A stretch of 64,000 nt of DNA from Argopecten irradians (Eukaryota > Mollusca > Bivalvia > Pectinida > Pectinidae), in contig NC_091140.1 in the NCBI RefSeq assembly GCF_041381155.1, forward strand, positions 20,116,864 to 20,180,863, read 5' to 3'. The notes beneath the pieces are model-generated. The model saw only the letters and a list, made by a program, of their open reading frames with translations, was not told the origin of the DNA and did no database searches. How positions within the stretch are numbered: position 1 is the first letter of the stretch; the number at the start of each line of letters is the position of its first letter. This document shows, piece after piece, positions 1,323 to 30,680 of the stretch. The position numbers and the translations under genes are program-made.

Positions 1323-4300
1323 GCAGGAGCTACCTCACAAAAATGCATGTGTCTACTTCCATCAGTCGCAGGAAAAGCACAGAAGGTAAACATGATGTAG
1401 TTATGTTGATGCCACAAAACCAATAATGGGTCATTAACAAACTGCTAACTGTAAGTGTGCATGTACCATATGTACACATGTTATGTGCTTAGCTGGAAAG
1501 AGTCATCTCTGACTCGACTAGGATAAGATAGGCTCCATACAGGGTTTTGGTAAAAGGTCATTCAAAAAGACGTGGGTAAAGTACTATTTATTGTCGATTA
1601 GTCCCACCTCCTGGTGATGATGATGATGATGTCACAAAAATCACGTCAAATGACAACATCATAATCACCGGAAGGTGGGACTAATGGACGGTAAATAGTA
1701 CTTTACCCACGTTGTTTTGGGATCATGAAACCCTTGTATTGGGAGTTTTCTGACAAAATCAGAAAGTTGGCAAGTGTATAAGTACATTATGATATACATG
1801 TCCAAAAAATTTCTACTATATACTGATAATGCTCACGGCCCAGCCTTAAAATTTCCACTTTAAAACACTTTTTTGTCTATTGATATGTCATTTTGAGATA
1901 TGTTTGTTGCTTGAAGGTGGTGATGGGAGACCAGGAAGGCTTATTTCAGTGTATAGGAATGAAGAAAGGAGAACCCCAGGTATGTTTTATAAAAAGAAGC
2001 ATTAAAAAAACCATAGAAATATCTGAGTTGCGTACTGCAGATAGAAATACAGTTTAGTGATGTATTATATCTATCAGTCACAGGTACTTGATTTCAAACA
2101 GATTTATAAATATTGACAAAGTGCAGTACCAAGTACCCTAAAAGGATTTAGTACTCCATTTTATCAATATAATTATTAAAGTCTTTTTGAAATAAAGTGT
2201 CTGCAAATGATCTGAATAAGAAAGTTGATAGTACCAAAAATCTTGAACTTTCTCATTCTTTCCGACCAAAAGGCAATATACAAAACATCTCTATGTCATT
2301 ACAGCTACTTGTAGAAGGTTGATAAATTATAATTAAATTGAACAATTCGTAAATGACAATTTACTATTACACTACATTGAGTTTGAATTCAGAGTTTGAA
2401 TATTGCTGTTTAAAAACAAGCTTTGTCTAATATTTCTATATTTATGTTTAGATTCTTTATGAAATGCTTATAGTCATAACAAGAAAGAAAAGGTTTTTCA
2501 CTTATGTTTCTTTGTTGTAGCATGTATTCAAAACAAACATTGCTAAGAAGATCAATCGTTTAGAACTAGGAGGACCCATCGGAGGTACACGGGAGAGAAT
2601 CTTTCTCGCTGTGGGATCAGAAGTTAAAGGATTCACAAAGAAGGGAAAGAATTTCTTAAAGTTTGATACAAATCTGTCCGAACCAATTCAATCTGTGTAA
2701 GTACATATACCAGTACACAATCATAGTAATAGAAAAGTTGTACATCTTGTTAGAATCAGAATCAAGACTGTCATAAAGGAAAGCCAGTCTGGGAAGTGTT
2801 AAGTCACTAACGGAGTACAGTGAATGATATACAGTGGACTTCTGATAATGCAGACACTGATAGCATGGAACACTCTCAGTCCAGACGGATATGTTAGGAA
2901 ACAGATTATCATAATGTTACATATTGAATATGAACAAACCTGGAAAATTTGTAAACTGGACGGTTTTCGAGGGTTCACTGTTCATCCGTTTTTGTCTTTT
3001 TTATTTTTTTTGTTGATCAAAAGTTTTTAAGTTCTTAAGTTATCTTTAGAGTCATCATATTTTTATATTTAGAATTATTTTTGAATCATGAATGTAATAT
3101 GCTACCTAACGTGCTTTATAAATTCAAGCATTTGATTTTCCTTCATGTTTACATTTTTGAAAATAAAAAATGGACAAAATATAGTGTGCAGTCTGCTATA
3201 TGTACCTATTCCATAACTATGACTTGTAACACCATTGCTTGTTTTTAGATATGTTGAAGGATCAGAGTTGATGACATGTGGAAATTTTGTGTATAATCAT
3301 TATCATGATTGTAAAGACACAAATTACTTCTTGTCTGGTGACAAGATCTCTGATATTGTGTGTCTGCCCATGGACCGCAATCCTGATATAACCCCAATTC
3401 TGGCTTGCCAGGATCGGGTACTCCGAGTTCTCCAGGTGGGTAAAGACATCTATACATGTATATACAGTAAAATCTGTCTTTGTAGCACCTCTCACTTCTG
3501 TATATAAAGACCCCCTGTTTAATGTGACCACTTAGTTTGGATCCAAAATGGTCAATAGCAATAAAATTTTACCTGTGGATGGCGAGATTGTAGAGATCAT
3601 TTTAGGTGTCACACTTAGATGGTCTTTCTTTTGACTGTAGATGTGATTAATAAACAGCTATACTACTATGCTTATTTAATGTTTTCTTATTCAATTATTC
3701 AAGAGGAATCATTTTTTTGTTCATCAATTAAGTTGAATTAACCCTTCAGCTTTTAAATTACTTAATTACAAATTTGAAAATTGGTAAAGATTCAATATAG
3801 ATGAATGATTTGAATAAACATGTGCAATCAGCTTATTTTATGTTTTCATAATTCATCATTCAACTCAGAAAGAGAAATTAGATTCTGTGTGATGTATACA
3901 ATTATAAATTAAATTTTTATATTAGGAGTCAGAGTTGCTGTATGAAGTAGAAGTTCCTGGCCCTCCCACAGTATTAGAGTTGTATGGTAATTCAGCAGGT
4001 AAGTACTAGGTAGTTCTTTGTTTATGTGTGTTTGCTAAAAATGACTTTTGAGTATAAATACAGAAAGCTTAGAACTGAAATAACTCTGTAAATTAATGTT
4101 GAATCATGATGCTTTTCAAACTCGTTCGAGATCCTTCGCAAATAACAAAATGGAAGGTGTTGATTTTAAAGTTGAAAAACACTTACCAATTGATACAAGA
4201 ATTATCATAATAATCATAATACCTCTGTTTGTTGAGAATATTTTAAATAAGTATAATATAAGCTTGTGGTTAACTTTTAAACTTAATATAATAGAAATGA

Positions 4301-4520
4301 GATGGAGCTTCCAATGAACCTTCACCGACCAACACCTTCAGGATTTCGGACCCATTCGCCACCCCTTTATTTTAAACTTCAATGTACAAAAAATGAAAGA
4401 TAATTACCCTAAGCTATGGATTGATAAGTATTATGTGTATCTATGTTCTACAGGAGAGGATGGAAATGAAATACTGTATGGAACATCAGACGGTAGAGTG
4501 GGACTGGTACAGATCAGCAA
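1323..4520 (+). CDS. BBS7: BBS7, BBSome subunit, 5' half only
   Basis: BBS7 is one of eight BBSome subunits. The BBSome carries membrane proteins into and out of cilia together with intraflagellar transport. Six exons are visible: 1323-1385, 1917-1979, 2521-2696, 3249-3435, 3926-3998 and 4454-4520. All have AG/GT borders, and the phases join into one frame of 209 codons plus two bases. The product follows the human N-terminal beta-propeller: GATSQK, IGMKKGE, LELGG, YNHYHDCKD, LSGDKI, LACQDRVLRVLQ, EVPGPPTVLEL and GTSDGRVGL. Missing are the first dozen or so residues (exon left of the window) and everything after about residue 220 of ~715: the rest of the propeller, coiled coil, GAE, platform and helical domains. 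The last donor (AA|GTCAGT) coincides with the first base of a 9.4-kb minisatellite. No later exon was recognised in the remaining 59 kb. The gene may be broken, have an enormous intron, or be misassembled. Confidence 0.93.
1570..1712. mobile_element. Foldback MITE in BBS7 intron
   Basis: This is an imperfect palindrome. ACGTGGGTAAAGTACTATTT at the left returns inverted as AAATAGTACTTTACCCACGT at the right, and TTAGTCCCACC / GGTGGGACTAA form the inner arms. The loop holds a (GAT)n run. A related copy lies at 42286-42433. There is no coding capacity. Confidence 0.75.
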
Positions 4521-7500
4521 GTCAGTAGTTCTCCTTGTCTTATAGAACATACAGTCAGTAGTACTCCTTGTCTTATAGAACATACAGTCCATATAGTACT
4601 CCTTGTCTTATAGAACATACAGTCAGTAGTACTCCTTGTCTTATAGAACATACAGTCAGTAGTACTCCTTGTCTTATAGAACATACAGTCAGTAGTACTC
4701 CTTGTCTTATAGAACATACAGTCAGTAGTACTCCTTGTCTTATAGAACATACAGTCAGTAGTACTCCTTGTCTTATAGAACATACAGTCAGTAGTACTCC
4801 TTGTCTTATAGAACATACAGTCCATATAGTACTCCTTGTCTTATAGAACATACAGTCAGTAGTACTCCTTGTCTTATAGAACATACAGTCAGTAGTACTC
4901 CTTGTCTTATAGAACATACAGTCAGTAGTACTCCTTGTCTTATAGAACATACAGTCAGTAGTACTCCTTGTCTTATAGAACATACAGTCAGTAGTACTCC
5001 TTGTCTTATAGAACATACAGTCAGTAGTATACTCCTTGTCTTATAGAACATACAGTCAGTAGTACTCCTTGTCTTATAGAACATACAGTCAGTAGTACTC
5101 TTGTTTTGATCTACTCTCTTATAGAACATACAGTCAGTAGTACTCCTTGTCTTATAGAACATACAGTCAGTAGTACTCCTTGTCTTATAGAACATACAGT
5201 CAGTAGTACTCCTTGTCTTATAGAACATACAGTCAGTAGTACTCCTTGTCTTATAGAACATACAGTCAGTAGTACTCCTTGTCTTATAGAACATACAGTC
5301 AGTAGTACTCCTTGTCTTATAGAACATACAGTCAGTAGTACTCCTTGTCTTATAGAACATACAGTCAGTAGTACTCCTTGTCTTATAGAACATACAGTCA
5401 GTAGTACTCCTTGTCTTATAGAACATACAGTCAGTAGTTACTCCTTGTCTTATAGAACATACAGTCAGTAGTACTCCTTGTCTTATAGAACATACAGTCA
5501 GTAGTACTCCTTGTAGTATAGAACATACAGTCAGTAGTACTCCTTGTCTTATAGAACATACAGTCAGTAGTACTCCTTGTCTTATAGAACATACAGTCAG
5601 TAGTACTCCTTGTCTTATAGAACATACAGTCAGTAGTACTCCTTGTCTTATAGAACATACAGTCAGTAGTACTCCTTGTCTTATAGAACATACAGTCAGT
5701 AGTACTCCTTGTCTTATAGAACAGTACAGTCAGTAGTACTCCTTGTCTTATAGAACATACAGTCAGTAGTACTCCTTGTCTTATAGAACATACAGTCAGT
5801 AGTACTCCTTGTCTTATAGAACATACAGTCAGTAGTACTCCTTGTCTTATAGAACATACAGTCAGTAGTACTCCTTGTCTTATAGAACATACAGTCAGTA
5901 GTACTCCTTGTCTTATAGAACATACTTATAGTCAGTCAGTAGTACTCCTTGTCTTATAGAACATACAGTCAGTAGTACTCCTTGTCTTATAGAACATACA
6001 GTCCATATAGTACTCCTTGTCTTATAGAACATACAGTCAGTAGTACTCCTTGTCTTATAGAACATACAGTCAGTAGTACTCCTTGTCTTATAGAACATAC
6101 AGTCAGTAGTACTCCTTGTCTTATAGAACATACAGTCAGTAGTACTCCTTGTCTTATAGAACATACAGTCAGTAGTACTCCTTGTCTTATAGAACATACA
6201 GTCAGTAGTACTCCTTGTCTTATAGAACATACAGTCAGTAGTAACTCCTTGTCTTATAGAACATACAGTCAGTAGTACTCCTTGTCTTATAGAACATACA
6301 GTCAGTAGTACTCCTTGTCTTATAGAACATACAGTCAGTAGTACTCCTTGTCTTATAGAACATACAGTCAGTAGTACTCCTTGTCTTATAGAACATACAG
6401 TCAGTAGTACTCCTTGTCTTATAGAACATACAGTCAGTAGTACTCCTTGTCTTATAGAACATACAGTCAGTAGTACTCCTTGTCTTATAGAACATACAGT
6501 CAGTAGTACTCCTTGTCTTATAGAACATACAGTCCATAGTAGTACTCCTTGTCTTATAGAACATACAGTCAGTAGTACTCCTTGTCTTATAGAACATACA
6601 GTCAGTAGTACTCCTTGTCTTATAGAACATACAGTCAGTAGTACTCCTTGTCTTATAGAACATACAGTCAGTAGTACTCCTTGTCTTATAGAACATACAG
6701 TCAGTAGTACTCCTTGTCTTATAGAACATACAGTCAGTAGTATACTCCTTGTCTTATAGAACATACAGTCAGTAGTACTCCTTGTCTTATAGAACATACA
6801 GTCAGTAGTACTCCTTGTCTTATAGAACATACAGTCAGTAGTACTCCTTGTCTTATAGAACATACAGTCAGTAGTACTCCTTGTCTTATAGAACATACAG
6901 TCAGTAGTACTCCTTGTCTTATAGAACATACAGTCAGTAGTACTCCTTGTCTTATAGAACATACAGTCAGTAGTACTCCTTGTCTTATAGAACATACAGT
7001 CAGTAGTACTCTTTGTCTTATAGAACATACAGTCAGTAGTACTCCTTGTCTTATAGAACATACAGTCAGTAGTACTCCTTGTCTTATAGAACATACAGTC
7101 AGTAGTACTCCTTGTCTTATAGAACATACAGTCAGTAGTAGTACTCCTTGTCTTATAGAACATACAGTCATATAGTACTCCTTGTCTTATAGAACATACA
7201 GTCAGTAGTATACTCCTTGTCTTATAGAACATACAGTCAGTAGTACTCCTTGTCTTATAGAACATACAGTCAGTAGTACTCCTTGTCTTATAGAACATAC
7301 AGTCAGTAGTACTCCTTGTCTTATAGAACATACAGTCAGTAGTACTCCTTGTCTTATAGAACATACAGTCAGTAGTACTCCTTGTCTTATAGAACATACA
7401 GTCCATATAGTACTCCTTGTCTTATAGAACATACAGTCAGTAGTACTCCTTGTCTTATAGAACATACAGTCAGTAGTACTCCTTGTCTTATAGAACATAC

Positions 7501-8341
7501 AGTCAGTAGTACTCCTTGTCTTATAGAACATACAGTCAGTAGTACTCCTTGTCTTATAGAACATACAGTCAGTAGTACTCCTTGTCTTATAGAACATACA
7601 GTCAGTAGTATACTCCTTGTCTTATAGAACATACAGTCAGTAGTATACTCCTTGTCTTATAGAACATACAGTCAGTAGTACTCCTTGTCTTATAGAACAT
7701 ACAGTCAGTAGTACTCCTTGTCTTATAGAACATACAGTCAGTAGTACTCCTTGTCTTATAGAACATACAGTCAGTAGTACTCCTTGTCTTATAGAACATA
7801 CAGTCAGTAGTACTCCTTGTCTTATAGAACATACAGTCAGTAGTACTCCTTGTCTTATAGAACATACAGTCAGTAGTACTCCTTGTCTTATAGAACATAC
7901 AGTCAGTAGTACTCCTTGTCTTATAGAACATACAGTCCATATAGTACTCCTTGTCTTATAGAACATACAGTCAGTAGTACTCCTTGTCTTATAGAACATA
8001 CAGTCAGTAGTACTCCTTGTCTTATAGAACAACATAGTAGTCAGTAGTACACCAGTTAGTCTTATAGAACATACAGTCAGTAGTCTTATAGAACAGTCAG
8101 TAGTACTCCTTGTCTTATAGAACATACAGTCAGTAGTACTCCTTGTCTTATAGAACATACAGTCAGTAGTACTCCTTGTCTTATAGAACATACAGTCAGT
8201 AGTACTCCTTTCTTATAGAACATAGTCAGTACTCCTTGTCAGTAGTACTCCTTGTCTTATAGAACATACAGTCAGTAGTACTCCTTGTCTTATAGAAACA
8301 TAGTCAGTAGTACTTTTGTCTTATAGAACATACTGTCTTAT
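4521..8341. repeat. 33-bp minisatellite array (array A)
   Basis: About 116 head-to-tail copies of a 33-bp unit that starts GTCAGTAGTACTCCTTGTCT and ends TATAGAACATACA. There are no spacers. Common variants are GTCCATATAGTACTCC (near 4590, 4823, 6001, 7402 and 7937) and an inserted TA giving AGTATACTCC. The unit is divisible by three, so both strands carry long repetitive open frames (plus TPCLIEHTVSS, minus MFYKTRSTTDC). They have no non-repetitive start, so I do not call a protein. Units become ragged after about 8020, as expected at an array edge. The left edge falls on the donor of the last visible BBS7 exon. Confidence 0.97.
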
Positions 8342-11300
8342 ATATAAGGTGTGTACTCCACTGGGCAGTAAGAGATGATATAAGGTGTGTACTCCACTGG
8401 GACGCAGTAAGTGATATAAGGTGTGTACTCCACTGACGCAGTAAGTGATATAAGGTGTGTACTCCACTGGGGCAGTAAGAGATATAAGGTGTGTACTCCA
8501 CTGGGGCAGTAAGAGATATAAGGTGTGTACTCCACTGGGGCAGTAAGAGATATAAGGTGTGTACTCCACTGGGGCAGTAAGAGATATAAGGTGTGTACTC
8601 CACTAGGGCAGTAAGAGATATAAGGTGTGTACTCCACTGGGGCAGTAAGAGATATAAGGTGTGTGTACTCCACTGGGGCAGTAAGAGATATAAGTGTGTG
8701 TACTCCACTGGGGCAGTAAGAGATATAAGGTGTGTACTCCACTGGGGCAGTAAGAGATATAAGGTGTGTACTCCACTGGGGCAGTAAGAGATATAAGGTG
8801 TGTACTCCACTGGGGCAGTAAGAGATATAAGGTGTGTACTCCACTGGGGCAGTAAGAGATATAAGGTGTGTACTCCACTGGGGCAGTAAGAGATATAAGG
8901 TGTGTACTCCACTGGGGCAGTAAGAGATATAAGGTGTGTACTCCACTGGGCAGTAAGAGATATAAGTGATATAAGGTGTGTACTCCACTGGGGCAGTAAG
9001 AGATATAAGGTGTGTACTCCACTGGGGCAGTAAGTGATATAAGGTGTGTACTCCACTGGGGCAGTAAGAGATATAAGGTGGTGTGTACTCCACTGACGCA
9101 GTAAGTGATATAATGTGTGTACTAGTAAGTGATATAAGGTGTGTACTCCACTGGAGCAGTAAGTGATATAAGGTGTGTACTCCACTAGGGCAAAAAGAGA
9201 TATAAGGTGTGTACTCCACTGGGGCAGTAAGAGATATAAGGTGTGTACTCCACTGGGGCAGTAAGAGATATAAGGTGTGTACTCCACTGGGGCAGTAAGA
9301 GATATAAGGTGTGTACTCCACTGACGCAGTAAGAGATATAAGGTGTGTACTCCACTGGGGCAGTAAGAGATATAAGAGATATAAGGTGTGTACTCCACTG
9401 GGGCAGTAAGAGATATAAGGTGTGTACTCCACTGACGCAGTAAGAGATATAAGGTGTGTACTCCACTGGGGCAGTAAGAGATATAAGGTGTGTACTCCAC
9501 TGGGGCAGTAAGAGATATAAGGTGTGTACTCCACTGACGCAGTAAGAGATATAAGGTGTGTACTCCACTGGGGCAGTAAGAGATATAAGGTGTGTACTCC
9601 ACTGGGGCAGTAAGAGATATAAGGTGTGTACTCCACTGGGGCAGAGATATAAGGTGTGTACTCCACTGGGGCAGTAAGTGATATAAGGTGTGTACTCCAC
9701 TGGGGCAGTAAGTGATATAAGGTGTGTACTCCACTGGGGCAGTAAGAGATATAAGGTGTGTACTCCACTGGGGCAGTAAGAGATATAAGGTGTGTACTCC
9801 ACTGACGCAGTAAGAGATATAAGGTGTGTACTCCACTGGGGCAGTAAGAGATATAAGGTGTGTACTCCACTGGGGCAGTAAGTGATATAAGGTGTGTACT
9901 CCACTGGGGCAGTAAGAGATATAATATAAGGTGTGTACTCCACTGGGGCAGTAAGTGATATAAGGTGTGTACTCCACTAGGGCAAAAAGAGATATAAGGT
10001 GTGTACTCCACTGACCTAGTATGAGATATAAGGTGTGTACTCCACTAGGGCAGTAAGAGATATAAGGTGTGTACTCCAAGGACGCATTAAGAGATATAAG
10101 GTGTGTACTCCACTGGGGCAGTAAGAGATATAAGGTGTGTACTCCACTGGGCAGTAAGAGATATAAGGTGTGTACTCCACTGGGGCAGTAAGAGATATAA
10201 GGTGTGTACTCCACTGGGGCAGTAAGTGATATAAGGTGTGTACTCCACTGGGGCAGTAAGAGATATAAGGTGTGTACTCCACTGGGGCAGTAAGAGATAT
10301 AAGGTGTGTACTCCACTGGGGCAGTAAGAGATATAAGGTGTGTACTCCACTGGGGCAGTAAGAGATATAAGGTGTGTACTCCACTGGGGCAGTAAGTGAT
10401 ATAAGGTGTGTACTCCACTGGGACAGCAAGAGATATAAGGTGTGTACTCCACTGGGGGCAGTAAGAGATATAAGGTGTGTACTCCACTGGGCAGTAAGTG
10501 ATATAAGGTGTGTACTCCACTGGGGCAGTAAGAGATATAAGGTGTGTACTCCACTGAGGGCAGTAAGAGATATAAGGTGTGTACTCCACTGGGGCAGTAA
10601 GAGATATAAGGTGTGTACTCCACTGGGGCAGTAAGAGATATAAGGTGTGTACTCCACTGACGCAGTAAGAGATATAAGGTGTGTACTCCACTAGGGCAGT
10701 AAGAGATATAAGGTGTGTACTCCACTGGGGCAGTAAGAGATATAAGGTGTGTACTCCACTGGGGCAGTAAGAGATAAGGTGTGTACTCCACTGGGGCAGT
10801 AAGAGATATAAGGTGTGTACTCCACTGGGGCAGTAAGAGATATAAGGTGTGTACTCCACTGGGCAGTACTCCAAGAGAGTAAATATAAGGTGTGTACTCC
10901 ACTGGGGCAGTAAGATATATAAGGTGTGTACTCCACTGGGGCAGTAAGAGAGGTGTGTACTCCACTGAGGCAGTAAGAGATATAAGGTGTGTACTCCACT
11001 GGGGCAGTAAGAGATATAAGGTGTGTACTCCACTGGGCAGTAAGAGATATAAGGTGTGTACTCCATTGACACAGTAAGAGATATAAGGTGTGTACTCCAC
11101 TGGGGCAGTAAGAGATATAAGGTGTGTACTCCACTGGGGCAGTAAGAGATATAAGGTGTGTACTCCACTGGGGCAGTAAGAGATATAAGGTGTGTACTCC
11201 ACTGGGGCAGTAAGTGATATAAGGTGTGTACTCCACTGGGCAGTAAGAGATATAAGGTGTGTACTCCACTGGGGCAGTAAGTGATATAAGGTGTGTACTC

Positions 11301-13891
11301 CACTGTGGCAGTAAGAGATATAAGGTGTGTACTCCACTGACGCAGTAAGAGATATAAGGTGTGTACTCCACTGACAGGTGGTAAGTAAGAGATATAAGGT
11401 GTGTACTCCACTGGGGCAGTAAGAGATATAAGGTGTGTACTCCACTGACGCAGTAAGTGATATAAGGTGTGTACTCCACTGACGCAGTAAGTGATATAAG
11501 GTGTGTACTCCACTGGGGCAGTAAGAGATATAAGGTGTGTACTCCACTGGGGCAGTAAGAGATATAAGGTGTGTACTCCACTTGGGCAGTAAGAGATATA
11601 AGGTGTGTACTCCAATAGGGCAGTAAGAGATATAAGGTGTGTACTCCACTAGGGCAGTAAGAGATATAAGGTGTGTACTCCAAGGACGCAGTAAGAGATA
11701 TAAGGTGTGTACTCCACTGGGGCAGTAAGAGATATAAGGTGTGTACTCCACTGGGGCAGTAAGAGATATAAGGTGTGTACTCCACTGGGGCAGTAAGAGA
11801 TATAAGGTGTGTACTCCACTGGGGCAGTAAGAGATATAAGGTGTGTACTCCACTGGGGCAGTAAGAGATATAAGGTGTGTACTCCACTGGGGCAGTAAGA
11901 GATATAAGGTGTGTACTCCACTGGGGCAGTAAGAGATATAAGGTGTGTACTCCACTGGGGCAGTAAGAGATATAAGGTGTGTACTCCACTGGGCAGTAAG
12001 AGATATAAGGTGTGTACTCCACTGGGGCAGTAAGAGATATAAGGTGTGTACTCCACTGGGGCAGTAAAGAGATATAAGGTGTGTACTCCACTGACGCAGT
12101 AAGAGATATAAGGTGTGTACTCCACTGGGGCAGTAAGTGATATAAGGTGTGTACTCCACTGGGGCAGTAAGAGATATAAGGTGTGTACTCCACTGGGCAG
12201 TAAGAGATATAAGGTGTGTACTCCACTGGGGCAGTAAGAGATATAAGGTGTGTACTCCACTGGGCAGTAAGAGATATAAGGTGTGTACTCCACTGGGCAG
12301 GTAAGAGATAATAAGGTGTGTACTCCACTGACGCAGTAAGAGATATAAGGTGTGTACTCCACTAGGGCACGCAGTAAGAGATATAAGGTGTGTACTCCAC
12401 TGGGGCAGTAAGAGATATAAGGTGTGTACTCCACTGGGGCAGTAAGAGATATAAGGTGTGTACTCCACTGGGCAGTAAGTGATATAAGGTGTGTACTCCA
12501 CTGGGGCAGTAAGTGATATAAGGTGTGTACTCCACTGGGGCAGTAAGAGATATAAGGTGTGTACTCCACTGGGGCAGTAAGAGATATAAGGTGTGTACTC
12601 CACTGGGGCAGTAAGAGATATAAGGTGTGCAGTAAGTGATATAATGTGTGTAGCAGTAAGAGATATAAGGTGTGTACTCCACTGGGGCAGTAAGTGATAT
12701 AAGGTGTGTACTCCACTGGGGCAGTAAGAGATATAAGGTGTGTACTCCACTGGGGCAGTAAGAGATATAAGGTGTGTACTCCACTGGGGCAGTAAGAGAT
12801 ATAAGGGTGTGTACTCCACTGGGGCAGTATGAGATATAAGGTGTGTACTCCACTGGGGCAGTAAGTGATATAAGGTGTGTACTCCACTGGGGCAGTATGA
12901 GATATAAGGTGTGTACTCCACTGGGGCAGTAAGTGATATAAGGTGTGTACTCCACTGGGGCAGTAAGTGATATAAGGTGTGTACTCCACTGGGCAGTAAG
13001 AGATATAAGGTGTGTACTCCACTGGGGCAGTAAGAGATATAAGGTGTGTACTCCACTGGGGCAGTAAGTGATATAAGGTGTGTACTCCACTGACGCAGTA
13101 AGTGATATAAGGTGTGTACTCCACTGGGGCAGTAAGAGATATAAGGTGTGTACTCCACTGGGGCAGTAAGAGATATAAGGTGTGTACTCCACTGGGGCAG
13201 TAAGAGATATAAGGTGTGTACTCCACTGGGGCAGTAAGAGATATAAGGTGTGTACTCCACTGGGGCAGTAAGTGATATAAGGTGTGTACTCCACTGGGGC
13301 AGTAAGAGATATAAGGTGTGTACTCCACTGGGGCAGTAAGAGATATAAGGTGTGTACTCCACTGGGGCAGTAAGAGATATAAGGTGTCCAGTAAGAGATA
13401 TAAGGTGTGTACTCCACTGGGGCAGTAAGTGATATAAGGTGTGTACTCCACTGGGGCAGTAAGTGATATAAGGTGTGTACTCCACTGGGGCAGTAAGAGA
13501 TATAAGGTGTGTACTCCACTGGGGCAGTAAGTGATATAAGGTGTGTACTCCACTGGGGCAGTAAGAGATATAAGGTGTGTACTCCACTGGGGCAGTAAGA
13601 GATATAAGGTGTGTACTCCACTGGGGCAGTAAGAGATATAAGGTGTGTACTCCACTGACGCAGTAAGAGATATAAGGTGTGTACTCCACTGGGGCAGTAA
13701 GTGATATAAGGTGTGTACTCCACTGGGGCAGTAAGAGATATAAGGTGTGTACTCCACTGGGGCAGTAAGAGATATAAGGTGTGTACTCCACTGGGGCAGT
13801 AAGAGATATAAGGTGTGTACTCCACTGACGCAGTAAGAGATATAAGGTGTGTACTCCACTGGGGCAGTAAGTGATATAAGGTGTGTACTCC
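8342..13891. repeat. 34-bp minisatellite array (array B)
   Basis: About 163 head-to-tail copies of a 34-bp unit: GGTGTGTACTCCACTGGGGC followed by AGTAAGAGATATAA. Common variants are ACTGACGCAG or ACTAGGGCAG in place of ACTGGGGCAG, and GTGATATAA in place of GAGATATAA. Scattered units carry insertions or deletions. It abuts array A directly, and both units contain TACTCC, so they may share an ancestor. The minus strand of the unit has no stop codon in any frame, which leaves open frames as long as 3.7 kb. These look like a by-product of the repeat. The array ends cleanly in unique sequence at 13892. Confidence 0.97.
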
Positions 13892-15873: not shown

Positions 15874-18800
15874 TCACTTCCCTTTCTTTTTTTCAACATT
15901 TTCAAGAGCATCTAACTTAACTTTTACGTGTTTTTTGGAGGTCTCGTCCACTCCCTCAAACACCAACTCTGTTTTACCAAAGTGCAGACTGACTGTGACC
16001 TTCCTGTCCTTACCACCAGTGGTATCTGGCATCTCCACCAGCATTTTACCTAAGTAGTGACACCCTGTGGTGTACTTAGGATCTTTCTTATCTGTGTAAA
16101 ATAAGCTGACAGTCATTCCCGTCATGTCCGCAGTCAGAGCATACACTTCTGTCTCGACAGTGTCTCCAACACGTATCAAAGTATCCTTCTCTACCAGCTT
16201 ATTGAAGACGTGTTGACAGTAGTCTGGACGTTTTTTGTCCCGCATTTGCTCATCATCAAAGTCTTTAAGGAAGAATCTGCTTACCTCTGCACCATAGGTG
16301 TATCTGCTGATACGAGCAGACACAATGCCTGGATTATGTCCGTACAAGACAGCTCCCTTCAGCACCGCCAGACCAGAATCTTGGGGAATCACCACTTTCT
16401 TGCCTGTGAGAATGGTTTTAACCGCCTCTTGTATTATCTTGCTCTCAGAGAACCCTCCAACCAATATCACATTATGGACTCCCATGGTCTCCTTTTTCTT
16501 AAATAATTTGGAAAAATGTTCCTGGATATTTTTCACAGAAGGATCAAAAAACTCCTTAACCTTTGAAACTGGTATCTTGACCCTACCACTTTTTACATTC
16601 AGAGTTCCTTTCCTGATGGTGTTCTGCAATTTCTTTGCTGAAGCCTCTTCAACATATTCACTCAAAGCTCCTAAATTTATTTTAATTCCAATGCTGCCTC
16701 CGTCTTGGTCAGTTTTCAGTTCTCGTTTCTGTTGCTCGATGGCCCGTTCAAAGTCTAGCTGTTCCGCTTTGCACTCATCAAAGACATCCTTCATCTTGTC
16801 TTTACCTACAAGTTGCTCAATGAACTTCCAGAATTCCTGATTGACAGTCATCCCTCCCCATGCTTCACCAGAGGCACACAAAACTTCCTGGATACTGCCA
16901 TCTGCCATCACTTCTCTCACAGTAAAATCAGCAGTACCCCCTAAAACACACAATCCTTTTAAATAATATTTTGCTGTTAACTGGCATATATTGTGTGTGA
17001 TTGAATAATAACTTTGGCACATTTCATGAACTTGAAAACACACATAGGTCAAACTTGACCAAGAGATCTAAATTATGAAATTGCAATGCCATGAAAATTG
17101 TGTGTAAAAACATGAAATTAAGTCGCCGCGAAAGGAGGTTGGTTTACAGTACAGTATAAATAAATACTATTTATCCTGTACTGTCCCACATATTGACCGA
17201 TAACTACTGCCGAATAAACTTGTGCTTTTTCTAACTAGACCCATTTTGTTTCAGTGATATATCACACTGAAAAGAATTACGGATACTATTTGTGAATGCG
17301 CTGATATATTTCCCACGGCAGTAAAAAGGAGTACACTCTCATTCGGTTTAGTGAATGAATCTTTACCTCTGCATCAAAGAAGCATCTCGCTTCAAGCGAA
17401 ACCAAGTAAATAACTGTCAATTTGTTTTCGTTTTGAATGCCATAATGGTTGCAGGATAAACAGAATACACGGCTTCTATCTTACAACACAAGTTTTATTT
17501 TGGTGCTCCATATGGAAAGCCGAGATGACTCAGCAAAACCTCATCATCTCGGCTTTCCTAAGTCTCGCACCAAAATAAACATTGTATTATAAGATACTGA
17601 CCATGTATTCTCTATATATATGAAGGTACAAAAATGAAGGATAAGAAATATAATTGCTACAATAAGAAATATCATTCATATATATTTTTGTGTGATGTTT
17701 GAATTCTTCATTATCTATATGCAGTATGGTGCAATCATGATCTGATCAACATATGTTGTTTCATCACGATGTTAAGACAAAATTTATATTTAAATATGTG
17801 TTGTTATTAAAAATCTACATCCTGAATTAAAAGACATGTAAGAATTTACCTAAAAACTATACACAGTTGTGTTAAGCTGTAAGAATGTGTCCTTGACCTA
17901 CCTCCAAGGTCAGAAACCATGTACTTTGTTCCAGGATCATACGAGGTGAGAAAGACATCTCCTTCATCCCCAGTTTTTCGTTGGACGGCAATTTCCTTGC
18001 AGTAAACTGATGCAGCCTCTGGCTCCAGAGCAAAGAGCAAATGTTCATCCTTTATACCGGCCTTCAAAAGAAAATTTATACATGATCAAGATATCCGGTC
18101 TATAATTTAATTTTGCAGTTATTTATTCTGGGTCTCCGATTCTTGTATAGTCCATTATATCTGTTGAATCTAATTTTGTTTTGAATCACAATACTTCAAA
18201 AATTGAAAGAAAATAAAAAACAATTCATCCATTTTGTATTTAATTTGCAAAAATAGCAAACAAAGGGCCATAACTCTAGAAGATAAAGTCGTTGCAAAAA
18301 GCAATTCATGTAAACACAACTTCATGTCAGGGTATTTAAACCTTCTGAGTGTGAAAAGGAAGAATCGATATCAAAGTGTATGATGTACGTATTATGAATA
18401 AGATGGAATAGGACCTTATATATTTTACAAGTAGGAATAACAACTAGGGAGCTATACCCTGTCAAACATAACAGATGTCTAGTTACCTTGACAGCAGCCT
18501 CTCTCATGAACTGTTTAGCCGAGTTGTCCCAGATAGCAGGCACCGTCAGTACCCATGTGATGGTGTCGTCTGTTGGCTTCACTGCTGCATGCTTCAGTGA
18601 ATCCATTAACATATTCTTGAAAAATTTGATAGATTCTGCAAATATTGTGAGGGCGAGGACTTCCTGGCCCTGGTCATCTTTTATCTTTGTGTCTCGTGAA
18701 AGTTTCACCTGAAAAACACATCACTGTTGTAAGATGTTTTCTTTCTCAATAATTTTTGCAGTAAATATATCTTAACTAAGAACATTTTAATTTCTTTTCC

Positions 18801-21800
18801 TTTGTTAGTAATACTGGTAGAACTCAAAGAAGGTTTATTATATAAACTAGAGCTTTGTTTTACTGATTTTATGCCTGAAAATTGGGAAACACATTTTTGT
18901 TTGTCTGACATTATCTTATTCACTCCTGAAAATACGTTTTCAACTCTTCTAAATTAAGCTGAAACAGTTAACAATGAAACGATGTAGGGTTACATCAACT
19001 TCAATAAAGATCTTGAGGATTTATTCGTTAGAATCTCCAGATAGGCCAAATCCAGTCTAAATATTATCAAGTCTCTAGCTACTCTTTATGCCTCTCAGTT
19101 CTTGGCAATATGTCATTCAAAGATTTTAGATTTTTGAATGGAGGTCAAGGTCATTCATTTTAACAAATATGGAAGACATTCGTCCCAACATGTTACAGAT
19201 GCAATATCAGGTCTCTAGGCTTCTTTATTTTTAAGAAAATGTCCTTAAAAGTTAATGGAGAGACCCGTAGACGATGGAAGGACAACGGACGCCACACCAC
19301 AGAACAAGCTCACTTGTCCTTTTAAAACCAACAATGTTTGTCTTATACACTAAGTTACTACAAATACCATATTAAAAAAAAACAATAGAATTCTGCAAGA
19401 CTCCACTATAACTTTTTAAGGACTTGCCCTGTTGTGCAGGTGACCTATACCTACCTGCCCGACTGGAAATTTGACTTGCCCAATAAATTTTGTTGAAAAA
19501 TAATAACAATTCTGTAATATGCATTTTAGACAGTTATATATATATGTTCTATTCAGATAAGCAATAAACTGTTCCTACTCTTTATTTCCCCTGCACAGGA
19601 CATGGGTGTCACGGCCCCATCATGCCCCTGGGGGATCAGAGCCAAAATTTATACAAATTTCATGTAAACTTCCCCCAAGATGTTTGTTCAGAATTCCTAT
19701 ACATTTGATCATTTGCAACAAAACTTTTGTTTAAGATAAAAAAAGTCGTTTTATCCTTCAAAAAAAATAAAATTGGGGCCCCTTTGCCCCTCCCCCCCCC
19801 GGCATTAAACAGGGATCCCAGGGTCATAAATTATACAATTTACAATTTCAATTTTCCCCATTCCCCACATGTTTGAGGGGCAAACGGAGGTGTTATATTT
19901 TTGATTGCCTATCAAATATTCCGCTTAGTTTCAGAGATAGAAGAAGTCTTCTGGAAAATAAAGGATAAATAGCCTAAATTGACCCATTTTAGACCCCGCC
20001 CCTCTTTGCCCCCCAGGGGGGAGCCGGCCAGACTACAAATCATATGATATTAAAAGCTATCTGCCAGGCTAATTATTGTTATCCCATGGACTTTTTCCAA
20101 TGAAAAGTCGCAATGAAATAGCCAAAATTTTTCCCAATTGGACCCCGCCCCCAGCCCCCGGGGTGTCCCCCAGGGTCATTAACAATTTTGAATCCCCCAC
20201 CAATGACCTTTCTATTGATACCATACAAAAATTATTCCATTACATTGCATGCTTCAGAGACAAAGTAATTTTTAGAAGAATTTTACCTATATTTTTAGCC
20301 TAATTGACACCCATTTGACTTTTTGCCCCCTATTGCCATTCAGGCCCCCGGGGGTCAGCCAATCATTTGTACAATTTTGAATCCCCTTACCCTATAAGGA
20401 TGCTACCATTGCTATTATTGGATGCAATCCCGCTTTAGTTTGCAGAGAAGAAGTCGTTTATATGGAAATTTAGCTCAAATTGACCCCTTTTGACCCCCCA
20501 ACCCTCAGGCCCCGGGGGGTCAGCCCCATCATTTATACAATTTTGAATCCAAACCCTTATAAGATGTAAACCATTGCCAATATGGTACAATCCCATGCAG
20601 AAGTTCAGAGAAAGAAGTCGTTTATATAGGAAATAGCCAAATTTGACCCCTTTTGGCCCCGCCCCACAGCCCCTGGGGGGTCTGCCCCCATCATTTGGGG
20701 GTCAATTCAATAAAAATTTTACAATCCCCCCCCTCCCCCAAGGATGCTACCATGTGCAAATATTGGTTACAATCCATGAGAACAGTCAGATTTGTTAGAA
20801 AAGCGATTTAAAGGATTTTGGAAATGTACGACGGACACGACGGACGACGTCAGACGACGACGGACGACGGAAACGCGGACGACAGGACGCCGCGGACATG
20901 ACACTCAGCTCAATGGTCCTTCGGACCAGGTGAGCTAAAATCCCTAAAAATCTGGATTGGCCTGCAATAATACGCTCACCTGGCTTTTTGTAAAAAATTA
21001 GTAAGATTGTTTAGAAAAGAATGTTATTTTGCTAAGTAATTTGTCCTTATACCTCAAATTGACCCCTTTGGACCCCTCTTCCTGATCAACGAGGGGGATT
21101 AGATGCCCAATCCCTTCATTTGAAATTTTGAATCCCCACAATTGTTAATATGCAAATTAGACAGTTAATAAATATATGTTCTATCAGCTTAAGCAGATAA
21201 AAGTCGATTTATTTTAGCCAAATTGACCCTATTGAGCCCCGCCCCTCCTGCCCAAAGGGGTCATATCCGGTCATTTATACAATTCAATTCAAATTCCACA
21301 CTGATATTCTTTCTGGGCCATTGCATTATATTGCAATCCATGCTATTATATCTAGAAGAATGCAGCGTTTATATGGAAATTTGTTAAATTGATTGAATTT
21401 TGTGCCCAATTCAGGGGTCAGAAAGAATTTTGCAAAAGTTGATGTTCCTATTCCGCTAAATTAACAACATTCTACTGGCAAAATTGCACAAATGCATGCA
21501 TAAAGTAGTTTTGCAGAGAAAGATTACATTAAAACGGCCAAAACTTTTGACCCCGCCCCTCAGGCTGGCCCCCGGGGGGGTCAACAATTAAACAAGTTCT
21601 GAATTATCAGTCACAAGGAATGTCATGCCAAATCAATCTTTGTATAAATGCAGAATTTAAGAACAATCGTTTATATGGATTAGCCAAATTTATGACCCTA
21701 TTTTGACCCCAGCCCCTTAGCCCCCCGGGGGGTCAGCCCCATAATTTGTACAATTTTTTTTACAAGTAAGGATAAACAACTAGGGAGCTATACCCTGAAA

Positions 21801-24800
21801 AATCCATGATGCTAGTTATATGACAGAATCTCTCATTAAGTTTACCATTGTCCCAGATTAAACCGTCAGTACGCCACCGATGGTGTGTCTGCCCCCGGCT
21901 TACTCTGCAGCCAAAATGTCATTAACATTTTTTGTTCATTTGATAGATTCTGCAAATATTGTGAGGCGAACTTCCTGGCCCAAATCTTTTATCTTTGTGT
22001 CGATTTAAAATTGGTAGTTTCAACTTCAAAAAAACATCACTTGTTGTTCCTTTTCATCAATATTTTTTTTTGTTTACAAGTGAATCTCAAACCCTAGGAA
22101 AATTCAATTTAATTTTTTTTTCACATGTAATATGTAGAACTCAAAGAAGGTTTATATTGATTATATTCTAAATATTTTGTTTTACTGATTTTTTCTGAAA
22201 ATTGGAAAAACCCCCAAAATTTGTCTGACATAGCTTTAGCTCAGATTTTGTTTCTGAAAATTTGATTTGCCAAATCTTCTAAAAATAAGCTGAAACAAAC
22301 AATGAAAACGAAGTAGGTTTACATCAACTTCTCAGATCTTGAGGATTTTTTTCGTTAGAATCTTCACATCCAGATAGCCAATTGTGTCAGTCAAAATTTA
22401 TCAAGTTCTAATTTTGAAAATATGCCTCCAATGTTCTTGGCATTGATCATTCAAAGATTTTCAATACATTTTTGAATCAGGAACAAGTAGTTTTATAGAA
22501 AATAGTAGCCAATTGACCTTTTTGGGCATCTATTGCCCCCTCCTGCCCCCGGGGGTGTTAGCAGATCATTTGTACAATTTTCAAATCCCAGTTCTCAACC
22601 CTTATAAAGGATTACCATTGCCAATTTTAAGAAAATGTCCTCCAGTTATTGAGAAGAAGAAGACGATAAAGGAAATACGGACAACGGACCCACTTTTCAC
22701 CACAGAAACAAGTCTCATTTGTCCTTCAGCAGTGAGCTAAAAACCAACAATGTTTGTCTTAAAACATCTAAGTTTACTTCAAATTACCATATTAAAAATA
22801 CAACAATAGAATTCGGCAAGTCTCACACTATAAATCTTTTGAAGGACCTTGTCCCTGTTGTGAATGTTGACCTTATAACCTACACTGCCCGACTGGAAAA
22901 TTGATCTTGCCCAATAATTTTTGTATGAAAATAATAACAATTTTCGTGTTAATATGCATTTTAGGACAGTTATATTATAAATGTTCAATTATTCAGGATT
23001 AAGCAATAAAAAAATGGTCCTACTGTCCAGTTGGCCTTGTGATAAGGTAGCAGCAGTCCACATAGACATGATGAACTCCCTGACAACTGATTATTTCAAG
23101 GTAATTGAATATTACAGAGTTAGCTACCTTGCAGGTATGGTATCGATTGTTATGTCATATTTTTGTGAGCACAATTCAAATCGTTTTTCTCTGAAAAAAG
23201 TATGATGTATACGCTCGCAAACACATGACTCTCAACAATCAATCACCTACCCGACAAGGACAGTTTATTCTGTAATATGCAATTACAGAATATCTTATTC
23301 TTAGTATGTACACTTTATCAGTGATGATTTACAAGATGATCAGGTGTATAATTATAAACTTTCTACAGGCAAAATCTAAATGTGCACCATAGCGAAAGAT
23401 CAAATTAAATCAACGGAGATCTTGGGCTCTAAGTTGGCACAACTAACCCATTTTTAACATAGATTATCAGTCACAAGATTGTCATTCAAATATAATTCTT
23501 TTATATAATGGTGAATTTTTGATGCATGAACTATAGCAGTTTTGAATAGTTTAACTCCAGACATTTTGTAAAAATCTCACAAACTCAACAGCTTTCAAAA
23601 CAGCCCAAATTTTTTCAATTTTTTTTTTTTTTTTTTAAATCTGTTTATACTTTTCTAAAATCATACATTTTATACAGAAATGCCTTTAGTTACATTTGTT
23701 ATAAACTGTAGGGGTGTACCATACATCAGATTATATACAAAATTACGTTAAAATTTGTGTCGATTAGTGAGGTTCAGAATTGATAAGTGAATATTTGCAG
23801 ATTACAATCATGTTTAAATAAATAAAATTGGTTATAACTTCAGAAAAAATTTCCGTGTTGTTTCCTTTTAAGTACAAATAATAAATTAAAATAATTTTTG
23901 CTTTATCAAGTGAAGGAAACAATAATCAATTGTGCCAGTTCATGTATTTAGGGGTCAAACGGAGGTGCTATTGCCATTGCCTATTCAAATATTCCGCTTA
24001 TTCGAAGCTATATTTCTTCTGGAAAAACCCTAATAAATCTGATGTCAGATAGCTTGATAGCTCAGATTTTTGTTTCAAGGTAATTTGATTTGCGATATCC
24101 AACTCTAAATCAACCTAAACAAGAGGCCCAGAGGGCCTGTATCGCTCACCTGGTTTTTTGTTAGTAATTATCACAAGAATCTGACAATTAGAAAAATAAG
24201 CAAAATTGTACTCCCAAAGTTTAATTTTTGAAATCACAACCATACAATGATGCAATTGATACCATACACATATGCTATCCAATACATAAGGTTCAGAGAC
24301 AAAGTAATTTATTATGAAAATAGTAGCCTAAATTGACCTTTTTGACCTCGCATCTATTGCCATTTAAGGCCCCGGGGTCAGCCCTATCATTTGTTACAAT
24401 TTCAAATCCCAACCCTATAAGGATGCTACCATTGCATTATAAGTGCTCTCTTTCCATTCTTAGTTTGCAGAGAAGAAGTCGTTTATATGGAAATAGCTCT
24501 AAATTTGACCCCTTTTGAACCATCCACCCTTTTTCAGGCTCCCAGGGGGGTCAGCCCCATCATTTGCAAAATTTTGAATCCAAACCAATAAGGATGTAAC
24601 CATTGCATTATGGAGCGCAATCCCATGTTAAGTTGCAGAGAAAAAGTCATTTATATAGGAAATTGACCACTTTTGACCCCGCCCCTCAGGCCCCCGGGGG
24701 TCTGCCCTATCATTTGCTCATATTTGGAATCCCCAGCCTACAAGGATGCTACCATTGCATTATTGGTGCTATACCATGCTTAGTTGCAGTAAAGAAGAAG

Positions 24801-28194: not shown

Positions 28195-30680
28195 TACAGT
28201 GGCTAATTTGTGCCATTTCGTCTTTTCGCCCCGAAAAGACGAGAAGGGCGAAAAGACGAGAATTAAGAAACCTTAATTTTCGTCTTTTCGTCTCTTCGCC
28301 CCGAAAAGCTTTTCGCGGCGAAAAGAAGAAAAGACGAAAAGTCAAACACGAAAAGACGAAAGTGATACACCCTAATTAGCGACTTTGATTCTCGTCTTTT
28401 CACCTTCAAAATTCTCGTCTTTTCGTCTTTTCGCCCCGAAAAAAAGACGAAATTTAACAAACCTTAATTTTCGTCTTTGCGAAAAGACGAAAATTAATAA
28501 ACCTTAAATTTCGTCTTTTCGTCTTTTTGGGGCGAAAAGACGAAAATTTAACAAACCTTAATTTTTGTCTTTTCGTCTTTTCGCCCCAAAAAGACGAAAA
28601 TTAACAAACCTTAATTTTCGTCTTTTCGTCTTTTAGCCCCGAAAAGACTAAAAATAACAAACCTTAAATTTCGTCTTTTCGTCTCATCGACCAGAAAAGA
28701 CGAAAATTAACAAACCTTAATTTTCGTCTTTTCGTCTTTTCGCCTTCCGGTCCGGTGTGGAAGTCATTTTGAAATCTTTTTATCTTAATATTGACTTAAT
28801 TGTTCAATATCAAGGGCGTAGGAAGGGGGGGGGCAGGGGGGGCAACTGCCCCCCCGTTCCCCAGGACGGGGGGGCAAACATGTCTTTTTGCCCCCCCATT
28901 TTCGCCGACTGAAATTTTCTAAAAATGCTTATTTGAAAGAAAAAAGGGTCCTCCTACACATTTTTCGTACTTCATTCTAGAAAATTTTCCGCTGCGCGGC
29001 GCATTTCCTAAAACGTTCAAGCACATAATGTCAAACCTTAAATAGTGAAAATTCAATACACACAAACTAGACTAAAAATGTCCATCAAGGGATTCTATGT
29101 GCTATTTAAAAAAATGTCTCTTAAAAGATCAATTTGTTTATATGTCTTAGCGAGACAATTAATTCATATGGAAGCATCAAAGAAGTTTATGATAACACTG
29201 TGTACAAGGATTAAATTTAGTGATATATGAAAAATGAACATAAAGCATATATTATATAGGTTTGGGAGTTGAATTAATCTCCTCCTGTAGTGTGGCGGGG
29301 GGGGGGGGGGGGTTTACAAAATATTGAGGACCTTTGCCCCCCCATGACGTTTTCATCTTCCTACGCCACTGAATATGGAAGCATCAAAGAAGTTTATGAT
29401 AACATCGATTTATTATATTGATAGTATTACAAGTTCCTTCATCAATAACTAAGATTAGTAGTTTTAAAACAGAAGTCAACATGTTTGTTTACAGCAGTTA
29501 CGTAGATTTCTCACACGTGGCATATGCCACGTGCCACTAACAGATTCATCATTCCGCAAATCCTTAAGCGTAATTGATACATTTTCTAAAATTCATTAAT
29601 ATCTTATTTTTTGTGTTCTAATCGCCCTCTTTAGCAATTACGCTTATCAAAACATTGCCGTGTATATTTAGGACCATAATGAACTTAAGATGCTAAACAA
29701 GCACTTAGAGGAGTTGCCTCCCCTACACAACTTCAAAAAAAAAAGTTGTCGGCAGGTAATATTTGAAAGCGTTTGAACCACAGATAAACTTGTTAAAAAA
29801 TTAATTTATGAAAGACAACTCATGAAGACTTTGAGTTTAAAGGAAGGACTTGTACCAAGAAATTGCTCAAATATAGTTAATTAGAACAGTCAATCAGTAG
29901 GTACAATGTACTGTGTATTATTTGAAAAGACATTTTGACTACATACATGACATGGTCTTCATCATAATTGTACATTAGAAATTACATTATAATCTTCGTC
30001 GTATATGATAGATGACAAAGTATATCGGTAATTTGTATTTTTTCGGGGCGAAAAGGCGAAAAGACGAAAATTAAGGTTTGTTAATTTAGAAAATTTTGAA
30101 AAGACGAAAAGATGAAAAGACAAGATTTTTGAAGGCGAAAGGACGAAAACTAAAGGCGCTAATTAGCATGCTTCACTTTCGTCTTTTCGTGTTTGAATTT
30201 TCGTCTTTAAGTCTTTTCGCCGCGAAAAGACGAAATTTAAATTTGTTAATTTTCGTCTTTTCGGGGCGAAAAGACAAAAAGACGAGAATTAGGGTTTGTT
30301 AATTTTCGTCTTTTCTGGGCGAAAAGACAAAAAGACCAGAATTAGGGTTTGTTAATTTTCGTCTTTTCTGGGCGAAAAGACGAAAAGACGAAAATTAAGG
30401 TTTGTTAATTTTCGTCTTTTCGGGGTGAAAAGACGAAAAGACGAAAATTAAGGTTTGTTAATTTTCGTCTTTTCGGGACGAAAAGACGAAAAGATGAAAA
30501 GACAAGATTTTTGAAGGCGAAAGAACGAAAATTAAAGGCGCTTATTAGCATTCTTCACTTTCGTCTTTTCGTGTTTGACTTTTCGTCTTTTCGCCGCGAA
30601 AACAAAAACAAGAGAATTAAGATATTCAATTTTCGTCTTTTCGGGACGAAAAGACGAAATGGCATAAATCAGCCACTGTA
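28195..30680. mobile_element. 2.5-kb TIR element of palindromic arrays
   Basis: Termini are TACAGTGGCTAATTTGTGCC at the left and the inverse of GGCATAAATCAGCCACTGTA at the right. CTATAC is repeated directly outside both ends (28189-28194 and 30681-30686) and reads as a 6-bp target-site duplication. Inside each end is an array of roughly 58-60-bp units in which CGTCTTTTCGCCCCGAAAAG hairpins alternate with AAAATTAACAAACCTTAATT (about 28220-28745 and 30045-30660). The middle has no recognisable gene and contains a nested hAT-like insertion. The superfamily is unresolved. Confidence 0.8.
28811..29371. mobile_element. Nested hAT-like non-autonomous element
   Basis: Its ends are CAAGGGCGTAGGAAG and the inverse of CTTCCTACGCCACTG. 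The right end read inward, CAGTGGCGTAGGAAG, is a classical hAT-type terminus. Long G and C runs sit just inside both ends (about 28825-28900 and 29295-29345). It inserted into the palindromic-array element. AATAT is present on both sides, and no clear 8-bp duplication survives. No transposase was seen. Confidence 0.7.

Follow-up and report, generated by a model that had tools for sequence, protein, structure and literature searches.

A minisatellite, here called array A, begins directly behind the last recognisable exon of a BBS7 gene in Argopecten irradians. We give a probability of about 0.5 to the reading that array A is a splice-junction minisatellite of a kind that recurs in this genome, and that the remaining part of BBS7 is absent from the assembly. 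Array A is an outlier and the weakest example of the kind, its unit reaching only 1–3 nt into the exon. The window, to which positions refer unless stated otherwise, is the whole analysed stretch of 64,000 nucleotides (NC_091140.1, positions 20,116,864 to 20,180,863 of the forward strand). In short motifs, a slash marks the border between exon and intron.

BBS7 exons and the adjoining arrays

Six BBS7 exons lie on the plus strand between 1323 and 4520, at 1323–1385 (AGATSQKCMCLLPSVAGKAQK), 1917–1979, 2521–2696, 3249–3435, 3926–3998 (with a strong donor, CAG/GTAAGT) and 4454–4520 (EDGNEILYGTSDGRVGLVQIS, corresponding to human residues ≈ 202–221). They were recognised by homology, with tblastn of human BBS7. 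All six have AG ahead and GT behind, and joined together they form a single open frame that matches the solved BBS7 structure (PDB 6vbu) with an E-value of 2.2e-81 and covers positions 1–201 of 299 of the Pfam model Beta-prop_BBS7 (PF23743).

Array A occupies 4521–8341 (plus strand, 3,821 bp) and starts at the base after the last recognisable BBS7 codon. Array B, with a distinct unit, follows it directly at 8342–13891 (plus strand, 5,550 bp). Tandem periodicity gave a 33-bp unit for A (GTCAGTAGTACTCCTTGTCTTATAGAACATACA) and a 34-bp unit for B (ATATAAGGTGTGTACTCCACTGGGGCAGTAAGAG), and the measured 116 and 163 unit lengths confirm the approximate unit numbers of the original prediction. Both arrays are highly regular: in A, GTCAGTAG occurs 107 times and ACAGTCAGT 102 times, and of 110 pieces obtained by cutting the array at its unit borders, 85 are identical; in B, GCAGTAAGAG occurs 115 times and GCAGTAAGTG 32 times. 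Exact units (87 of A, 80 of B) are found at the BBS7 locus only in the 846-Mb genome. The first unit of array A departs from the consensus at a single base out of 33. The periodicity extends only 1 base into the exon (3 with a 34-bp offset). Read in the BBS7 exon frame, this first unit contains an in-frame TAG. Four of the 33 possible phases of the unit start with GT.

The GT at the edge of exon and array provides a weak candidate donor, CAA/GTCAGT (4521–4526, plus strand). Scored with a human 5′-splice-site matrix, it reached 1.33 bits, a value that 4.5% of the window's 2,930 other GTs on the plus strand match or exceed. This is the lowest score among the six BBS7 donors, the other five having 1.47, 3.69, 5.46, 5.95 and 8.78 bits. 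Predicted pairing with U1 was likewise weak (−3.1 kcal/mol versus −6.8 to −13.5 kcal/mol for the other BBS7 donors). A GC-type alternative, TCA/GCAAGT, starts at 4517, four bases before the candidate GT donor. The proposal that the array begins exactly at a BBS7 splice donor was borne out as far as BBS7 homology ends at 4520 and array A starts at 4521. The low score and the weak U1 pairing speak against use of the site, and 4520/4521 is no more than a candidate donor.

The usual repeat in array A carries C at position −2 and scores −0.87 bits, and only one site within A reaches the score of the first. For array B, the proposed word GCA/GTAAGAG did not hold up: it scored 1.0 bits and was surpassed by AAG/GTGTGT at 5.2 bits. 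Sites of at least 4 bits have a density of ≈ 29 per kb in array B, compared with 0.42 per kb outside the arrays, but array B starts 3.8 kb from the exon. The description of hundreds of near-identical decoys is fair numerically and overstated for how strong they are at BBS7. Splice competition would be better tested on taxilin, enolase and BLTP1 (below).

Human exon borders bear on the same question. The literature yielded three of them for BBS7, c.718+3, c.849+1 and c.1230+5. The first comes from the variant c.718+3A>G, named in PMC11291329, and it means that the human exon extends into codon 240, while similarity in the window ends near codon 221. The human donor thus lies ≈ 18 codons beyond the edge at 4520 and, being in codon 240 and not near 222, is evidence against a conserved donor at 4520. 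An assignment of c.1636 to 'exon 7' (PMC9334124) was set aside because it clashes with 'exon 15' for c.1666 (PMC2603185).

Beyond residue ≈ 221, searches of the window and of the 120 kb downstream and 80 kb upstream gave no BBS7 sequence. A search of the whole assembly with the C-terminal 494 amino acids of human BBS7 (residues 222–715) gave no matches. Profile searches of the assembly with hairpin, platform and GAE models likewise gave no match over the cut-off (PF23349, 0 of 10; PF23361, 0 of 5; PF23360, 0 of 1). As a control, the BBS2_hp profile, applied by the same method, exceeded its cut-off in two exons. The propeller profile detected four window exons (profile positions 14–204) and one place elsewhere, with an E-value of 7.8. 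Out of a complete coding sequence of propeller, GAE, platform and hairpin, only the propeller, at positions 1–201 of 299, was found in the assembly. Since full-length human BBS7 recovered only two of the six window exons in the genome search, and the propeller profile four of six, short divergent downstream exons could be missed. BBS7 may therefore be broken, its 3′ part may have been lost by the assembly at the repeat, or short divergent exons may have escaped the search.

Weak matches were considered as a possible BBS7 C-terminus and rejected. The best PF23349 match belongs to the taxilin gene described below and another (locus L006) reads with stops; the PF23361, PF23360 and C4 matches are below the cut-off or are repeats.

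The window has several further features. Positions 103–233 and 326–456 are two 92% identical copies that contain a sequence looking tRNA-like by eye, possibly a SINE. Repeats of 53 bp, palindromic (CGAAAAGACG...), form two inverted clusters at 28410–28744 and 30029–30672, with a third upstream at −20484. The stretches at 18418–19568 and 21753–23010 are gap-rich, degenerate-looking copies of 71–85% identity, either an old duplication or the product of a poor consensus. A minus-strand open reading frame at 15880–16959 had no Pfam match.

Junction minisatellites in other genes

Ten other donor arrays were found that begin inside or at the end of an exon: one each in taxilin, enolase, an ABC transporter and two further genes (L047 and L049), and five in BLTP1. 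Their units contain 7–55 nt of exon followed by GTAAGT, GTAAAC or GTAACT, so that every one of the ten combines exon sequence with a splice signal. Their U1 pairing ranges from −5.0 to −12.2 kcal/mol, compared with −3.1 kcal/mol for array A of BBS7. The identity of the exon is backed by a Pfam E-value of 6.3e-6 or better in 7 of the 10, several of these being fragments that fall under curated whole-protein cut-offs.

The taxilin array (within C1:60696020-60703000; 30-bp unit, ≈ 52 units; Pfam 6.9e-25) has coding exons on both sides. The upstream exon ends ...RKLSV/GTAAGT; the array opens inside the end of this exon, repeating the exon end plus GTG/GTAAGT, and is followed by the exon VSREKDQ. 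When the first donor is joined to this next exon, EHR and EKD are separated by 18 residues, the spacing of human taxilin. The predicted taxilin protein would therefore keep its normal spacing if the first donor were used.

Four more arrays were examined through their upstream flanks, those of enolase (C1:205250-205920), a gene with an armadillo-like exon (L047; C1:1197450-1198120), the ABC transporter (C1:2761750-2762440) and one other gene (L049; C1:2890020-2890720). These were the first four distinct arrays among the matches listed, and all four start at the end of an open exon that leads into GTAAGT and is itself preceded by an acceptor. The flanking exons matched Enolase_C (5.3e-10) and, just under the cut-off, ABC_membrane (6.3e-6). 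A third matched an engineered protein in the PDB (E-value 6.5e-4), which we take to be armadillo-like, and database searches gave no support for the exon at L049.

The BLTP1-like gene lies outside the window, at 84757–131049 relative to the window start on the minus strand, and contains five donor minisatellites with units of 54, 37, 45, 56 and 40 bp. Pfam supports four of the five exons (E-values 2.6e-8 to 1.8e-14), the exon at 119376 having no Pfam support. In two cases the next exon continues the profile (871 to 875 and 1016 to 1020), and later profile stretches were found beyond the array at 127034. The same gene has a 110-bp acceptor minisatellite at 88227–88608 (relative to window start, minus strand), in which copies of TTTTAAG/GATGAGATGATC... 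precede an exon ending ...RPIVLAHPLAFDK/GTATGT. Its unit joins an acceptor to the start of an exon; the exon behind it matched BLTP1_C at 3e-5, just below the cut-off. This array rules out a class restricted to donors. Motif searches of the kind described below can find donors only, so they are silent on acceptors.

We also surveyed 264 kb around the window for tandem arrays (period 20–120, at least three copies, at least 90 bp). Of the 26 merged arrays, five are the BLTP1 donor arrays, one is the BLTP1 acceptor array, one is the BBS7 locus with A and B merged, and 19 have no visible span of an exon edge. Tandem repeats of period 10 or more make up 17.4% of the 264 kb. Finding five or more donor arrays among 26 has P = 1.4e-3 at an expected 3.3% each, a generous assumption that allows a donor every 1.5 kb with zones of 50 nt, but all five are in one gene. 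Three arrays on the minus strand (78998–80089, 83298–83394 and 177258–178002 relative to window start) end ≈ 10, 45 and 22 nt, respectively, before likely acceptors without spanning them; among the exons behind them, only that at 177258 has Pfam support (Cadherin, 4.7e-7). An array at −27745 repeats CAG/GTGAGT but has no clear exon and was not accepted as a junction array.

Genome-wide, three GGTAAGT words spaced 15–45 bp apart gave 19,107 matches (10,219 + 8,888), 3-fold more than the reversed word with 6,192 (2,893 + 3,299); matches overlap, so these are not counts of arrays. For the stricter word CAGGTAAGT, likewise in threes, the overlapping matches numbered 2,120 (1,326 + 794) against 59 (9 + 50) for the reversed word, a 36-fold difference. 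Single words outside repeats were not in excess in 218 kb (GGTAAGT, 22 versus 33 for the control; CAGGTAAGT, 3 versus 3). The minus strand of C1:6463090-6468164 holds at least ≈ 5 kb of a 42-bp unit carrying CAGGTAAGT.

The period is a multiple of three in 3 of the 10 donor arrays, as expected by chance. In the other seven, choice of a wrong donor should therefore be visible and costly. We looked for selection against decoy donors in the five scorable arrays and saw none: 92–100% of the repeated GTs are intact, and their rank among the dinucleotides of the unit is inconsistent (28 of 54, 22 of 37, 18 of 45, 30 of 40 and 8 of 30), which gives no clear sign of decoy purging.

Origin of the BBS7 array

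The preferred explanation for the recurrent arrays is as follows. Tandem duplication would affect a short stretch that lies at a splice site or spans it, and the copies would expand and homogenise through slippage or unequal exchange. The intron would thereby come to open with its own donor repeated several to a hundred times. The donor next to the exon would stay functional while the others turn intronic, and the gene would remain correct provided that the spliceosome takes the first donor. At BBS7, the missing part would reflect an assembly failure at the repeat or a deletion on the sequenced haplotype. The spliceosome presumably uses the first donor, the decoys being largely ignored or their use tolerated, and the route of duplication given here is a proposed one. 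The suggestion that the array grew from the splice site itself agrees with the other arrays of the genome, whose units hold an exon end and a donor, and is not borne out at BBS7, where the unit has no exon sequence and no downstream BBS7 exon was found.

For BBS7, the abutment of the homology with array A, together with a GTCAGT in the top 4.5% of window GTs, argues for a junction array. The same edge could have been produced by a deletion, rearrangement or misjoin that cut BBS7 in the middle of an exon, array A being the other side, with no donor at 4520 and a coincidental GT. The longer human exon (to c.718), the failure to find residues 222–715 while the BBS2_hp control was found, and the weakness of the site all fit such a cut, as do the gap-rich degenerate copies in the neighbourhood (21.8–23.0 kb of 18.4–19.6 kb) and the ease with which the unit presents a GT (four phases of 33). 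However, short exons could have escaped a search of this sensitivity, and loss of exons is equally expected from assembly failure inside a genuine intronic array. Moreover, the GT with which the array opens ranks in the top 4.5%, all six exons have an open frame and AG/GT edges, and junction arrays are recurrent in the genome. A mid-exon cut is a serious possibility, which we nevertheless hold to be somewhat doubtful.

A third and improbable reading makes array A an ordinary minisatellite within an intron, with a left edge that came to lie near the exon by chance and with donor and decoys irrelevant. The abundance of tandem repeats in the 264 kb, the 19 merged arrays without a visible exon-edge span and the lack of exon sequence in the unit of A are consistent with this, but chance placement sits poorly with five of 26 arrays at exon ends with a donor in the unit (though all in one gene) and with the 3-fold and 36-fold motif excess. 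The splice-junction origin is our working explanation for array A. A broader generalisation is tentative and rather less likely than not: in this animal splice junctions, donors above all, may be hot spots of minisatellite birth. Perhaps of the order of a thousand introns, housekeeping genes such as enolase included, would then open with several to a hundred donor copies, which the spliceosome would ignore by a positional rule favouring the first. The figure of a thousand is an extrapolation from four arrays that one motif yielded in the initial 2.9 Mb of C1.

Significance and relation to known systems

How a 5′ splice site is chosen among equals is a long-standing question that has usually been studied with a few engineered copies. 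This genome offers genes with 3 to ≈ 100 near-identical donors in a row, and thereby a natural test of 5′ splice-site choice. The arrays are also relevant to why tandem repeats arise at exon–intron boundaries, and to gene models, since introns of this kind may defeat both annotation and assembly; BBS7 is perhaps an instance.

Among the literature matches listed, we found no report of splice-junction minisatellites in molluscs or bivalves; a paper on abalone describes an intronic minisatellite only (PMC6905558). Tandem duplication of AG/GT segments has been put forward as a route of intron gain in the Rogers model (described in PMC3087553) and for potato RdRp (PMC4974935). The arrays described here share with this model the tandem duplication of a segment with splice signals, but the copies lie at one end of an intron and no new intron is seen. 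In human IFI6 (6-16), a minisatellite at an exon end supplies repeats that serve as donors (Turri 1995, as cited in PMC4526556). The likeness is a minisatellite at an exon end carrying donor-like repeats. The downstream repeats of IFI6 are used donors, whereas such use would add a stop at BBS7, and seven of the ten arrays have periods that three does not divide.

The closest parallel is with the amphioxus 'mirages', minisatellite-like tandem duplications of exon–intron boundaries in Adh, TnC, the globins BflGb6 and BflGb9, and PGBD5. RT-PCR is said to suggest normal splicing, and length instability is described both between haplotypes and somatically (PMC3087553, PMC3902484). The present arrays, in a different genome, differ in having up to ≈ 100 units, in the occurrence of six arrays in one gene and in donor-word matches far above the control genome-wide. 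Array A of BBS7 has no exon part in its unit beyond 1–3 nt, and its left edge is only a candidate splice boundary. The ten donor arrays and the BLTP1 acceptor array fit the mirage definition: as in amphioxus, where donors and acceptors are both affected, their units bridge exon and intron and multiply the splice signal.
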